Shown: piece by piece, positions 24,191-43,965 of the stretch
How positions within the stretch are numbered: position 1 is the stretch's first letter
Layout: every line of letters starts with the position of its first letter
Source: Bryobacterales bacterium
Lineage (GTDB): Bacteria > Acidobacteriota > Terriglobia > Bryobacterales > Bryobacteraceae
Reading direction: 5' to 3'
Assembly (NCBI GenBank): GCA_003164035.1
Contig: PLRS01000154.1
Span: 1 to 64,000 of the forward strand
DNA: 64,000 nucleotides
Notes under the pieces: generated by a model
What the model saw: the letters and a program-made list of their open reading frames with translations, nothing else
The model's database searches: none
Told to the model about the DNA's origin: nothing
Translations under genes and position numbers: made by a program

Positions 24191-24235
24191 GTGGAGCGGA
24201 CTCTCAGTCTGCCACGCCGGGACTCCTCCCGGCGC
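24191..24235 (+). repeat. REP family B, dispersed copy (B1)
   Basis: Begins GTGGAGCGGACTCTCAGTCT and ends in the hairpin GCCGGGACTCCTCCCGGC. It is the same unit that flanks the RAYT gene at 41 kb. It sits between hpnJ and hpnI and is followed by TTTGGCTGCGGCTATGCTGC and a family D hairpin, an order echoed at 39.9 kb. Confidence 0.9.
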
Positions 24236-39871: not shown

Positions 39872-40960
39872 GTGTGGAGCGGACTCTCAGTCTGCCACGC
39901 CGGGACTCCTCCCGGCGCGTTTGGTTGCGGCTACGCTGCTTTGTGGGGCAGGTTGGTAACCTGCGAACCGATTGTTAATCGGTTCCGCCGGGCGCCAGCC
40001 CGGCAACTCCTCGACAAGCCCAAGAGTTGGCCCACTCCGCGAGTACGGAGCCTGATCTGGGCCCTGCTGGCCTGTGCCTTTTCCGCCCATGCTGCCACCT
40101 ACTACGTCGCGATCTCCGGTCTTGGCGGCGAGCCGGATTACGACCAGCGCTTCAAAATGTGGGCCGAAGATATCGATGGCAGCATCAAAAAGGCCGGGGG
40201 CAACCCGATCACTCTAATCGCTCCGAACCGGGACCAGATCCGCGCGCGGCTGGAGGAGCTTTCCCGCACCGCGAAACCCGACGATGCGCTGGTCTTGATG
40301 CTGATCGGCCACGGCAGTTACGACGGGGTGGACTACAAGTTCAATATTCCCGGGCCGGATATCACGGCGGGGGAACTGGCGGCGGCGCTGGACCGGATTC
40401 CGGCTACGCGGCAGTGCGTGGTGGTGATGACCAGCTCGAGCGGCGGGGCCATTGCCGCCCTGCGCAAGGAGGGCCGCGTGGTGATCGCCTCCACCAAGAG
40501 CGGCACGGAGAAGAACGCGTCCATGTTCGCGCGCTATTGGGCCGAGGCCCTGCGCGACCCGGCGGCCGATAGCGACAAGAACGAAGCGGTGACGGCGCTG
40601 GAAGCGTTTCTGTTCGCCCAGCACAAAGTGGCCGAATACTTCGATTCCCAAAAGCGGCTGGCCACCGAGCACGCCGTTCTGGAAGATACCGGCAAGGGCG
40701 AAGGCGAGCGCACCCCATCGGTGGAAAACGGAGAAGGGAAACTCGCCGGCAGCTTCACCGTGGTTCGCCTGGGCGCCAACGCCGCCGCCGCGCGCGACCC
40801 CGCCAAACGCGAACTGCTAGCCAAGAAGGAAGCCCTGGAGCAGGCCATCGACAAGCTGAAATACGATAAAGCCGCCCTCGCCGCCGCGGAGTACAAACGT
40901 CAATTGACCGGCCTGCTGCTGGAACTGGCCCGTACCCAGGAGGCGCTGGATAAGCCATGA
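39872..40960 (+). CDS. Legumain/caspase-like (C13-type) protein, probably catalytically altered
   Basis: The conserved part begins near 40057 with a signal-like LIWALLACAFSAHAATYYVA, then GLGGEPDYDQRF, ALVLMLIGHGSYDGVDYKFN (His-Gly of peptidase clan CD), and CVVVMTSSSGGAIAALRKEG, where a C13 catalytic cysteine would be expected but serines stand; RVVIASTKSGTEKNAS follows. A C-terminal coiled coil (LLAKKEALEQAIDKLKYDKA) ends it. The 5' 180 bases are REP family B and C repeats, so the coordinate given is the first GTG of the frame; no conventional start lies downstream of the repeats. Probably exported and a binder or pseudo-enzyme in the MoxR/VWA system. Confidence 0.65.
   Translation: MWSGLSVCHAGTPPGAFGCGYAALWGRLVTCEPIVNRFRRAPARQLLDKPKSWPTPRVRSLIWALLACAFSAHAATYYVAISGLGGEPDYDQRFKMWAEDIDGSIKKAGGNPITLIAPNRDQIRARLEELSRTAKPDDALVLMLIGHGSYDGVDYKFNIPGPDITAGELAAALDRIPATRQCVVVMTSSSGGAIAALRKEGRVVIASTKSGTEKNASMFARYWAEALRDPAADSDKNEAVTALEAFLFAQHKVAEYFDSQKRLATEHAVLEDTGKGEGERTPSVENGEGKLAGSFTVVRLGANAAAARDPAKRELLAKKEALEQAIDKLKYDKAALAAAEYKRQLTGLLLELARTQEALDKP
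39874..39918 (+). repeat. REP family B, dispersed copy (B2)
   Basis: Starts GTGGAGCGGACTCTCAGTCT, four bases past the VWA stop codon, and ends with the GCCGGGACTCCTCCCGGC hairpin. It is followed by TTTGGTTGCGGCTACGCTGC and then family C. Confidence 0.9.
39961..40015. repeat. Palindromic repeat family C, copy 1
   Basis: Two hairpins in series: GAACCGATTGTTAATCGGTTC and GCCGGGCGCCAGCCCGGC. The same pair of hairpins occurs at 51.9 kb. It encodes part of the apparent N-terminus of the C13-like protein. Confidence 0.85.
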
Positions 40961-40967
40961 AGCGCTC

Positions 40968-41012
40968 GTGGAGCGGACTCTCAGTCTGCCACGCCGGGAC
41001 TCGTCCCGGCGC
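40968..41012 (+). repeat. REP family B, RAYT-flanking copy (B3, outer left)
   Basis: GTGGAGCGGACTCTCAGTCT head and GCCGGGACTCGTCCCGGC hairpin, 7 bases past the stop of the C13-like gene. Confidence 0.92.
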
Positions 41013-41105
41013 GTTTCCCTGCGGTCTCTGGCAGGTGGCGAGAGGTCTGCACGTAGACGCGGTCGGCGCCGAGTGCGGAGTACCCGACAGGGTCGAGCCG
41101 GGCAA

Positions 41106-41150
41106 GCGCCGGGACGAGTCCCGGCGCGGCAGACTAGGAGTCCGCTCCAC
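41106..41150 (-). repeat. REP family B, RAYT-flanking copy (B4, inverted)
   Basis: Inverse of B3: hairpin GCCGGGACGAGTCCCGGC first, then GAGTCCGCTCCAC. B3 and B4 form an inverted pair about 95 bp apart. B4 overlaps the 3' end of the RAYT gene. Confidence 0.92.
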
Positions 41151-41694
41151 CGGCGCGCTCTCCCGCCGCCGCACTCGACCACGGATACTCCTCAGGGCGC
41201 CCGACCAACCCAGCCTTCACCGGGTTGGACTCGATATACGCGACAATGCGGTCGAACTCGTCCGCATTCCGCACCCAATGGTCGTAGCTCTCGGCTTGCC
41301 AGAAGGACTCTCCGGTACGGCCCAGTATCCGGTTCGCTTCGCGGGCGGTGGCGCCCTTCAGCGATCCGAGCAATCGGGAGGGCGAAACCAGCGGGAGCAG
41401 CAGCGCATGGACGTGATTCGCCATTACAACCCAAGACCTGAGCTCATAATGCCCCAGTTCCACCCCGCGCCGCAGCGAGGCCACGATGGTTCTGGCGATC
41501 GGTTCCTGACGCAGGTACAGCGGTCCGTCTTGGGTCGTGTCGAGGTAACGATCCATCCACACGAAAGCCCCGCCCGCACTGAGATGGGCCGGTGGAGGAT
41601 ACCTGTTGTGGGGAAGGCTGCCGTGCAAATGCCAGGTGACGAAGAGCCAACGCCCCAGCGGGTAGCGGTGGGGGAGACGGCGCGAATCCTGCAT
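41134..41694 (-). mobile_element. RAYT: REP-associated tyrosine transposase (IS200/Y1 family)
   Basis: A 186-residue single-strand transposase. The HUH motif is VMANHVHALLLP (His-Val-His) near residue 91, and the catalytic tyrosine is in FWQAESYDHWVRN, followed by FDRIVAYIESNPVKAGLVGR and EYPWSSA, all typical of RAYT/TnpA-REP proteins. ATG 41694 (MQDSRRLPHRYPLGRW) is preferred because the longer frame to 41955 translates REP DNA. The gene is flanked on both sides by inverted REP family B pairs, whose GTGG head resembles the tetranucleotide that RAYTs recognise next to a hairpin. It interrupts the MoxR/VWA cluster on the opposite strand. Confidence 0.93.
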
Positions 41695-41735
41695 AGAGTT
41701 AGAGTCGATTCCGATCGCGGATTTCTCGACAAAAT

Positions 41736-41780
41736 GTGGAGCGGACTCCCAGTCTGCCACGCCGGGACTTATCCCGGCGC
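41736..41780 (+). repeat. REP family B, RAYT-flanking copy (B5)
   Basis: GTGGAGCGGACTCCCAGTCT head and GCCGGGACTTATCCCGGC hairpin, 41 bases from the RAYT start codon. Confidence 0.92.
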
Positions 41781-41850
41781 GTTTTCCCGGTCGGCGGCGA
41801 AAGCTCTGCATCCGGATACAGTCGCTACCGACTCGGGAGTTCTCGACAAA

Positions 41851-43965
41851 ATGGCGCGGCCCACGCGCCGGGATGAGTCCCGGCGTGGCAGACTGAGAGT
41901 CCGCTCCACGATAATCGCCGCCTTGCTGGCTTTCTGTCTCCCCCTTTCCGCCCAAACCCTCGATCAGGCCGAAGCCTTATGGAAGGCCCGACGCTACCAG
42001 GAGGCCAACGAAGTTTTCAAAACGCTGGTCGCCGCCCATCCCGAGAATGCCCACTACCGCGTCCGTTGGGGCAGGATGTACCTGGACCATTGGCAGGCAC
42101 CGGACGCCGAGGGGCTTTTCGACGAGGCGCTGAAGCTCGATCCGAAATCCGCCGAAGCCGCACTGGGCAAGGCGCTGGTGGCATCGGAATCTTTCGCGGG
42201 TGCGGCCGCCGAGCTGGCGCGACGCGCGCTCGAGCTCGATCCGAAGCTGGTGGAAGCGCAGGAACTGCTGGCGCGGCTGGCTCTCGAAGACGGCGATCGG
42301 GAGAAAGCGGCGGTGGAAGCGCACCGGGCGTTGGCTCTCGATCCCCAGTCCGTCCAAGCCAAGGCGATTCTCGCGTCCATCGACTGGCTCGACGACAAGA
42401 AAGATTCACCCTGGGATCCCAAAGCCGCGCGCGGCTATGAAACCGCCGGGCATTTCTTCATGCTCAATCGGCGCTACCTGGAATGCGTGGCCTTTTATCG
42501 CAAGGCGCTGGCTCTCGATCCGAGCTTGTACTCCGCGCAGTCGCAGCTCGCCATCAACCTCATGCGCCTGGGCCAGGACCAGGAAGCTCAGTCGCTGCTG
42601 AAAGATTGCTGGGATCACGATTTTCAGGACTACGCCACCGCCAATTCGCTCAAGCTGCTCGATACCTTCAAAGACTACGTCACCTTTCGCACCGCCCGCA
42701 CGATTTTGAAGCTTCAAAAGAAGGAAGCCGACTTACTGCATCCCTACTTCGAAACCGAGATGGAGCGCGTCATCGCCACCTACGAAAAGAAATACCGGTT
42801 TCATTTGCCGGGGCCGGTGCAGGTTGAGGTCTATCCCAATCACGACGACTTCGCCGTGCGAACCGCGGGCATGCCTGGGCTGGGCATCCTGGGCGTGACG
42901 TTCAACATGGTGGTCGCGATGGACAGCCCGTCGGGCCGGCCGCCGGGCAGTTTCCATTGGGCCTCCACTCTATGGCACGAAATGAGCCATGTCTTTACCC
43001 TGACCATGACTCAATCCCACGTGCCTCGCTGGTTTACCGAGGGCATCGCGGTACATGAGGAGACGGCGGCCTCGCCGGAGTGGGGCGACCGGCTGGGGCC
43101 GGAGGAAATCGCCGCCATCGAGCACAAACAACTTCTGCCGGTGGCGGATCTCGATCGCGGCTTCGTGCATCCTAAAAGCGACAGCCAGGTGGTCGTGAGC
43201 TATTTCCAGGCCGGCAAGATCTGCGACTTCATCACCGAGAAGTGGGGATGGGATACGATCCTGGCCATGCTGGCCGATTTCGCGCACAACCAGGAAACCG
43301 GCGCAGTGATTCAAAAAGAACTCAAAATCCCGCCCGAAGAGTTCGACAAACAGTTTCTGGCCAAGCTGGAAGGCGAGACCCGGAAAATCGCCGAGAACTT
43401 CGATCGCTGGCGCGCGGCGGCTCGCCAGGTCAACGAAATGGAGAAGAACAAAGATTACGACGGCGCCATCAAGCTCGGGACCCAGTTTCGCGACGTCTAT
43501 CCGGAATTCGTGGAAACCGGCAGCCTGTACGAGGCGCTGGCGGAAGCCGACATGGCCAAACTGGACAAGCCGGCGGCCATCGGCGAATGGGAGCGCTACG
43601 TACACATGGGCGGGCGCAATCCCGAGACTTTCGAAAAGCTGGCCGGTGCCCTGATGGAATCGGGCAAGGGCAAGGAAGCCGCCGACATACTCAATCGCTT
43701 GAACTGGATCTACCCGGAAGACAACCTGCTGCACCAGCGCCTGGGCGGATTGTGGCTGGACGAAGGGAACGCCGCGGGAGCAGTGACGGAATTCCGCGCG
43801 CTGGTGAGCAACCACCCGGTGGACCGCGCCGAGGCCCATTACGAGCTGGCCCGCGCCTACAACCAGAACCGCCAGCGCGATCAGGCGCGCGACGAAGTGC
43901 TGGCGGCGCTCGAGATCGCTCCGGACTTCAAACCGGCGCAGAAGCTGTTTCTGGAACTGCAATAA
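41851..43965 (+). CDS. Exported TPR protein with gluzincin-type (HExxH) metalloprotease domain
   Basis: About 704 residues. After a signal-like segment (STIIAALLAFCLPLSAQ, near 41905) come tetratricopeptide repeats (LDQAEALWKARRYQEANEVF, AAALGKALVASESFAGAAA-like units) to about residue 240. A peptidase domain follows with LWHEMSHVFTLTMTQSHVPR (HExxH near residue 375) and WFTEGIAVHEE (third ligand Glu), and C-terminal TPRs end it. It may act in the periplasm with the MoxR/VWA proteins. ATG 41851 lies just before REP copy B6 and would give a repeat-encoded, Arg-rich n-region (MARPTRRDESRRGRLRVR). The open frame continues upstream to 40957 through repeats and antisense RAYT, which I do not credit. 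Confidence 0.75.
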   Translation: MARPTRRDESRRGRLRVRSTIIAALLAFCLPLSAQTLDQAEALWKARRYQEANEVFKTLVAAHPENAHYRVRWGRMYLDHWQAPDAEGLFDEALKLDPKSAEAALGKALVASESFAGAAAELARRALELDPKLVEAQELLARLALEDGDREKAAVEAHRALALDPQSVQAKAILASIDWLDDKKDSPWDPKAARGYETAGHFFMLNRRYLECVAFYRKALALDPSLYSAQSQLAINLMRLGQDQEAQSLLKDCWDHDFQDYATANSLKLLDTFKDYVTFRTARTILKLQKKEADLLHPYFETEMERVIATYEKKYRFHLPGPVQVEVYPNHDDFAVRTAGMPGLGILGVTFNMVVAMDSPSGRPPGSFHWASTLWHEMSHVFTLTMTQSHVPRWFTEGIAVHEETAASPEWGDRLGPEEIAAIEHKQLLPVADLDRGFVHPKSDSQVVVSYFQAGKICDFITEKWGWDTILAMLADFAHNQETGAVIQKELKIPPEEFDKQFLAKLEGETRKIAENFDRWRAAARQVNEMEKNKDYDGAIKLGTQFRDVYPEFVETGSLYEALAEADMAKLDKPAAIGEWERYVHMGGRNPETFEKLAGALMESGKGKEAADILNRLNWIYPEDNLLHQRLGGLWLDEGNAAGAVTEFRALVSNHPVDRAEAHYELARAYNQNRQRDQARDEVLAALEIAPDFKPAQKLFLELQ
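41865..41909 (-). repeat. REP family B, RAYT-flanking copy (B6, inverted; inside the TPR-protease start)
   Basis: GCGCCGGGATGAGTCCCGGC then GTGGCAGACTGAGAGTCCGC and TCCAC. B5 and B6 form the second inverted pair. This copy is read through as codons of the putative signal peptide. Confidence 0.92.

Follow-up and report, generated by a model that had tools for sequence, protein, structure and literature searches.

The region at positions 40968 to 41909 of a 64,000-nucleotide (nt) stretch of contig PLRS01000154.1 from a Bryobacterales bacterium (the whole stretch is hereafter called the window) raises the question of whether a gene for a REP-associated tyrosine transposase (RAYT) and the repetitive extragenic palindromic sequences (REPs) around it, together termed a REPtron, move as one unit. 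The initial annotation described a RAYT between two inverted REP pairs, and this arrangement was recovered, with GTGG starts at 40968 (+), 41150 (-), 41736 (+) and 41909 (-). The REPtron layout and the membership in the RAYT family are ordinary. What appears to be new here is, first, that a RAYT clade of Bryobacterales has REPs with two hairpins and, second, the insertion of a whole unit; the latter, absent from the earlier reading, interrupts a gene just past its start. The features of the locus are as follows (H1 and H2, hairpins 1 and 2):

40957..40967, plus strand: first codons (ATG AAG CGC TC) of the interrupted gene
40968..41909, minus strand (the RAYT strand): whole REPtron unit, 942 nt, with inverted ends and outer ends GTGG ... 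CCAC
40968..41011, plus strand: REP 1, double hairpin (GTGG 40968-40971, H1 40973-40989, H2 40992-41011; z -2.98)
41106..41150, minus strand: REP 2, double hairpin (GTGG 41147-41150, H1 41129-41145, H2 41106-41127; z -4.20)
41134..41694, minus strand: RAYT gene, an open frame of 186 amino acids (aa; protein P0001)
41736..41779, plus strand: REP 3, double hairpin (GTGG 41736-41739, H1 41741-41757, H2 41760-41779; z -3.92)
41792..41852, minus strand: spacer between REP 3 and REP 4, resembling 41678-41735, i.e., the 5' leader of the RAYT and its first codons
41866..41909, minus strand: REP 4, double hairpin (GTGG 41906-41909, H1 41888-41904, H2 41866-41885; z -4.16)
41910..43965, plus strand: remainder of the interrupted gene (G ATA ATC GCC ...), with homologues in 111 of 121 genomes of the family

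The distance from the end of the upstream gene to the position matching 41911 is 956 nt in the window, as compared to 2-133 nt in 29 relatives (i.e., all those with a locus; positions were extrapolated from tblastn matches), and the flanking genes are conserved neighbours. Excision of exactly 942 nt, from GTGG at 40968 to CCAC at 41909, restores MKRSIIAALLAFCLPLSAQ and leaves a spacing of 14 nt. Across the junction, the flanks read ATG AAG CGC TCG ATA ATC ..., i.e., MKRSIIAALLAFCLPLSAQTLDQ, which by eye appears to be a signal-peptide start like those of the relatives; the interrupted gene, also by eye, appears to be tetratricopeptide repeat (TPR)/peptidase-like. The longest spacing among the relatives (133 nt, in genome G036) includes a separate GTGG...CCAC REP stretch at the same gene start, one arm of which is degenerate. 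The hypothesis that units insert into palindromic target sites was rejected, as only one of 36 units stood out; this RAYT unit (L061, in a Bryobacteraceae genome) splits a palindrome whose two sides match over 17 bases each. Separately, the 942-nt insert of the window is a multiple of three and is open in the frame of the interrupted gene, such that a 1002-aa open reading frame at 40957-43965 crosses the REPtron; annotation pipelines might call this a false fusion protein.

The assignment of the encoded protein as a RAYT-type HUH/Y1 protein (two-histidine HUH motif and single tyrosine) in the initial annotation agreed with profile, PDB and fold matches. P0001 has the HUH-Y1 fold with both the HUH motif (NHVH) and the tyrosine (within WQAESYDHW) intact, and among 23 aligned homologues N93, H96 and Y137 are invariant and H94 is nearly so. 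The Pfam profile Y1_Tnp matched with 31.2 bits (above the cut-off of 23), and the sole PDB sequence match at E 0.01 was E. coli TnpArep, 4er8 (E 2.5e-06). When an AlphaFold2 model of P0001 (mean predicted local distance difference test score, pLDDT, of 83.3) was used for a fold search, 4er8, a RAYT bound to a REP hairpin, was ranked first in the PDB (E 1.4e-08), and Foldseek ranks 2-30 were Y1 transposases, including ISDra2, IS608 and IS200. The RAYT stop codon lies inside REP 2, within 41129-41150.

Each REP of the window consists of GTGG, 1 unpaired nt, hairpin 1 (stem of 7 bp, loop of 3 nt), 1-2 nt, and hairpin 2 (stem of 8 or 9 bp, loop of 4 nt); z-scores for all four, folded as single-stranded DNA, ranged from -2.98 to -4.20. 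Hairpin 1 is GCGGACT-CTC-AGTCTGC (7 bp) with GTGG at its foot, and hairpin 2 is a GCCGGGA hairpin. While the GTGG head proposed in the initial annotation is present on every REP, it does not stand beside the GCCGGGAC-GTCCCGGC palindrome as had been stated, the two being 21 nt apart with hairpin 1 between them. As in known REPtrons, a GTRG tag is found at the hairpin foot and copies flank the gene; where the REP of a REPtron forms a single hairpin, either short or long and bulged, the window REP has two in tandem. Folding of one REP on both strands further showed that hairpin 1 contains a G.T pair, which on the opposite strand is an unpaired A.C. This pair could aid strand choice, an idea limited by its occurrence at this position in only 6 of 30 aligned REPs.

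The tandem design recurs beside other RAYTs. Among 162 full-length RAYT loci (of 180 matched), GTGG-tagged tandem hairpins, with GTGG 0-2 nt ahead of the hairpins, were found within flanks of approx. 300 nt in 107/324 flanks in the outer orientation, as compared to 19/324 in the opposite orientation and 2/966 shuffled flanks. These loci included 12 near-duplicates. After their removal, and with GTGG or GTAG as tags, 37 of 150 loci showed double hairpins on both sides and 31 on one side only (in 3 of these the other flank lies beyond the contig), while 40 had single hairpins only and 42 had none found or could not be judged.

In a tree of 150 RAYTs (careful search; bootstrap short of full convergence at 0.989; row L041 very long), one branch (100/96) separates 85 rows, of which 65 have double hairpins, 4 single hairpins and 16 none, from 65 rows with 3, 36 and 26, respectively. 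The latter side holds rows of other phyla as well as single-hairpin RAYTs of the same family; both types therefore coexist in the genome studied here, in which 14 RAYT matches at 13 loci were found, with double hairpins near L031-L034, L036 and L038 and single hairpins near L035, L037 and L040. The three double hairpins off the clade (L094, L096 and L097) have GTAG tags, with linkers of 3-5 nt in L096 and L097 and a 5-bp second stem in L094. On the whole tree the hairpin label requires at least 18 changes, as compared to a shuffled mean of 49.4; the double-hairpin label is thus clustered, yet often missing or undetected. Those close relatives that have names are genomes of Bryobacterales, Bryobacteraceae and Solibacteraceae, and the two-hairpin architecture marks a RAYT clade of Acidobacteriota (Bryobacterales). 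Of 199 genomes searched across the phylum with a covariance model, 2 were positive, and these belong to the same family; as only 31 candidates were scored per genome, absence outside the family represents weak evidence. The proposed link between enzyme and repeat held in homologues in that the GTGG/two-hairpin design is shared, although the closest homologues carry repeats of different sequence, an outcome that the initial annotation had counted against the link. Such differences favour cognate pairs, since each RAYT has its own REP family according to PMC6006769.

The initial annotation also presumed that the repeat would recur elsewhere in the genome, and it does. A 27-nt head of the window REP occurred 6 times in the window within 3 mismatches (0 expected; 100 shuffles), and a search of the whole genome (8.01 Mb, 169 contigs) yielded 61 exact copies and, when up to 3 mismatches were allowed, 105 copies (forward, 54; reverse, 51), with 0 matches for the reversed pattern. 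As in REPtrons, the cognate repeat is dispersed at high copy. In the window, the following REPs lie apart from the unit:

24191..24234, plus strand: single dispersed copy of the window REP family
39874..39917, plus strand: single dispersed copy of the window REP family, just past a stop codon
39943..39985, plus strand: double-hairpin REP of another family (GTGGGGCAGGTT...), beside the copy at 39874..39917

Copies of the window family are mostly single (67 of the 71 examined with context). The remaining 4 have an inverted partner within 320 nt and are taken to be those of the REPtron, the sole such pairs among the copies listed; at 30 window-family loci, no inverted partner of the same family (up to 7 mismatches) was found within 900 nt. 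Among the 40 candidates scored out of 177, DNA likeness between the REPtron interior and the dispersed copies spans one REP, mostly 44-56 nt, and not the gene. Of the 71 window-family copies, 56 have a C and 11 a T immediately ahead of GTGG, as compared to T27 C20 A17 G10 for the 74 ends of 37 units. A strict target dinucleotide was rejected, as the C preference is not general and the window-family copies share contexts.

Other families are present in the same genome, including a GTGGGGC head type with 140 copies (control, 0) and a GTGGCGC type with at least 150 covariance-model matches (scored for 150 of 9943 candidates). Twenty neighbouring inverted pairs of the latter type, chosen for their pairing, have the form GTGG...CCAC, and 15 of them are 113-114 nt long. 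Eighteen of 71 window-family REPs have the head of an other-family REP 15-50 nt downstream, with a common leader like TTGGYTGCGGCTAYGCTGC (e.g., L005, L012, L016, L022, L211, L239, L243 and 39874-39985 in the window). At L251-L254, L260, L261, L264, L266-L268 and L270, REP pairs of the GTGGCGCACGCA family lie within a larger inverted repeat, with GAAATAACCATGCCA-like sequence on both sides, i.e., an element within an element. Nine copies located approx. 130-510 nt from contig ends (G000 contigs C1, C24, C29, C49, C52, C97, C129, C140 and C159) share a common context, and a longer multi-copy repeat beside them therefore probably broke the assembly. A distant RAYT-like match (L039, G000 contig C46) lies amid tandem repeats of the CCGTTCGCTGCCGACC type, together with long repeats in both direct and inverted orientation.

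Covariation was assessed using 30 distinct 46-nt REPs in one register (43 of the 130 double-hairpin REPs found were in register). Changes on both sides were observed in 11 of 16 pairs, with 99.6% of cells paired, and for hairpin 2 in 7 of 9 pairs. As these rows were selected as paired, this result alone is circular. A check free of such selection used genome copies found by the head sequence, i.e., the 40 with at least one mismatch among the 100 copies listed out of 105; it replaces a compensation count on 71 fetched copies, which was set aside because these had been chosen with a GGACC/GGTCT variant in view. In hairpin 1 of the 40 copies, 16 pairs had changed on both sides and 12 on one side while remaining paired; 7 one-sided breaks and 1 two-sided break were found.

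With one REP taken per RAYT, the loops of hairpins 1 and 2 were identical in 20 of 68 RAYTs, as compared to a permuted mean of 4.0 and a maximum of 11 in 2000 permutations, and with the CTCR type set aside (39 RAYTs), loop likeness still exceeded that of permuted pairs (0 of 2000). This match hints that one protein surface may read both hairpins. Independent tree contrasts numbered at most 6 for CT-type loops, the commonest (median p 0.06), and were too few for three other types (median p 0.5); common descent may therefore explain much of the loop match.

Copies of whole units were found in genome G037, in which two contigs each carry a RAYT unit and the two units show 91.9% identity across 745 nt; comparison of their flanking sequences revealed no likeness beyond the shared stretch except REPs. 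Two older same-genome pairs each show one informative end: L045/L049 (82%) ends at CCAC+2, and L159/L173 (76%) ends at GTGG-4; the other ends are uninformative. Possible derivatives were sought in the spacers of REP pairs. The REP 3/REP 4 spacer scored 44 against the RAYT leader and first codons (23 or less in 200 shuffles), and the pair thus looks like a gene-deleted REPtron. The REP 1/REP 2 spacer resembled the REP 3/REP 4 spacer (score 24; 0 of 200 shuffles as high) and showed no likeness to the RAYT leader directly (71 of 200 shuffles as high). The leader test was also applied to five long second-family REP pairs and was positive or borderline in three: L262 was good (0 of 300 shuffles as high), L263 was weaker (2 of 300), and L256 was weaker and matched the middle of the gene (0 of 300). 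Likeness was absent in L255, L257, L050, L054 and L058, the last test set including three REP pairs of relatives. The idea that REPIN (paired REP) spacers are RAYT remnants in general was rejected in favour of a partial role only, the shuffle values being uncorrected for the number of tests.

Overall, these data make it probable that the unit is an insertion-sequence-like RAYT element and that the short repeats are its non-autonomous derivatives. In the proposed mechanism, the RAYT would bind the GTGG strand as single-stranded DNA, with GTGG and hairpin 1 as the part common to ordinary REPs, while hairpin 2 would provide a further site for binding, perhaps by another subunit. The RAYT tyrosine would cut and rejoin beside the tag, and the enzyme would occasionally move the whole unit, with short REPs and REP pairs as its non-autonomous derivatives. 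Several observations weigh against this reading. In the G037 pair, identity extends past the tags, by 43 nt on the GTGG side and by 17 nt on the CCAC side; the tags are therefore not the exact limits of the moving unit in that genome, and the cuts may lie outside them. The window RAYT shows only approx. 70% DNA likeness to its nearest relatives in the same genome, so that movement of this REPtron within this genome is either old or has left no surviving copy. When the flanks of 36 units were joined, spanning open frames resulted in 10, no excess over the 27% for random joins, and gene interruption is thus claimed for the window only. Moreover, 14 of the 16 two-sided changes in hairpin 1 are identical (closing T-A to C-G) and may represent few events. 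The match of P0001 to NCBIfam REP_Tyr_transpos (NF047646; 76.3 bits, E 2.2e-21) falls just under the cut-off of 80, a near miss, where the modelled fold and the PDB matches point to a RAYT. Finally, cleavage, movement, strand choice and the role of hairpin 2 are inferred from sequence.

Whether the RAYT itself moved is also at issue in an alternative in which the unit was assembled stepwise, with a REPIN entering the gene start before a RAYT arrived through recombination with a second REP pair. We regard this as doubtful. It would agree with the structure of the unit as REP pair - RAYT - REP pair, with the pairs in direct orientation to each other and their spacers related, as well as with the same gene start in G036 (L274), where a GTGG...CCAC stretch has one good double-hairpin REP and one degenerate REP without a RAYT (by eye). 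It also fits the published view of RAYTs as single-copy and not self-mobile: REPINs are supposed to derive from the ends of an ancestral IS200-like element, present RAYTs being unable to self-mobilize (PMC3116915), and no evidence of tnpAREP mobility is reported (PMC8266576). Conversely, the likeness of the two REP pairs is only 74% across 117 nt, most two-sided units (29 of 37, with lengths of 550-942 nt overall) fall within 651-711 nt, too short for two REP pairs and a gene, and G037 has a second copy at another site. The whole unit in a gene start and the two G037 copies speak against immobility, a trait that describes REPtrons without defining them, while stepwise assembly remains as a rival. 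A bolder form of the element reading sees living autonomous RAYT transposons, i.e., the self-moving REPIN ancestor supposed by Bertels and Rainey (2011), with bipartite ends whose two loop-matched hairpins would be read by two RAYT subunits, and with single REPs and REP pairs as miniatures, some retaining a piece of the RAYT leader; we hold this tentatively, at somewhat below an even chance.

The second hairpin could instead be incidental. The REPtron would then be an ordinary one that depends on GTGG and hairpin 1 alone, with hairpin 2 a transcription terminator or insulating stem carried along. By eye, the single-hairpin REPs of same-family RAYTs resemble hairpin 1, and many second-family REP pairs differ between arms in hairpin 2 while hairpin 1 is constant. 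We nevertheless consider this unlikely, as hairpin 2 varies with compensation (in the 7 of 9 pairs noted above, from rows selected for pairing), often has a loop like that of hairpin 1 (partly through shared ancestry), and is carried by the dispersed copies. Domestication, proposed for RAYTs generally in PMC8266576, would have the REPs serve the host and the RAYT kept as a housekeeping gene. This seems very improbable here, as P0001 homologues (E 1e-15) occur in only 52 of 121 family genomes, with 1 to 10 matches per positive genome and several partial or with internal stops, and as the unit is inserted in a gene. The clade is of wider use: the mode of REP spread is unsolved, and the question becomes testable in a clade whose units are defined, whose relatives have uninterrupted sites, and in which copies of units and several RAYT/repeat families occur within one genome. 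The covarying two-hairpin substrates provide naturally occurring combinations of enzyme and substrate, both matched and mismatched.

Compared to known systems, the unit shares the Y1 fold and a compact one-gene organization with IS200/IS605 elements (IS608, ISDra2). These elements have non-inverted subterminal hairpins at both ends, and the ends of IS608 and ISDra2 are not known to be inverted repeats. The ends of the window unit, in contrast, are inverted repeats, and its protein matches the RAYT 4er8 best both by sequence and by fold. Solibacter usitatus, of the same bacterial group, has a Class 3 TnpAY1 with high-copy hairpins near its gene; it is characterized by a CnGA tag and a Y----Q motif, as opposed to GTGG and YIESNP in the window RAYT (PMC6006769). 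No description of the two-hairpin REP design was found in the open-access literature among the titles and starts of abstracts listed, which for two-hairpin REPs covered 15 of 49 hits. TIRtrons, with their TIRYT genes, likewise have a RAYT-like gene between inverted, sometimes self-complementary ends, and PMC3733652 mentions double palindromic terminal inverted repeats (TIRs) for them, as well as cases in Koribacter, Terriglobus and other Acidobacteria. The TIRtron motif GGGGWSAS is absent from the window REP (by eye), which has GTGG at the foot of hairpin 1, and TIRtron ends are long inverted ends unrelated to GTAG REPs, whereas those of the window are inverted and GTGG-tagged; given the double palindromes of Figure 9 in PMC3733652, the two designs may overlap. 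The closest parallels are the RAYTs (TnpAREP) with the REPs and REPINs of E. coli, Pseudomonas and Stenotrophomonas, which likewise combine an HUH-Y1 protein, a 5' GTRG tag at the hairpin foot, dispersed cognate repeats and inverted pairs; in one Marinomonas system, GTGG replacing GTAG led to cleavage at CA (less efficiently) and CC (PMC8266576). Unlike these REPtrons, the window family has two tandem hairpins per REP, evidence for insertion of a whole unit, several diverged units per genome, and dispersed copies that are mostly single and unpaired.

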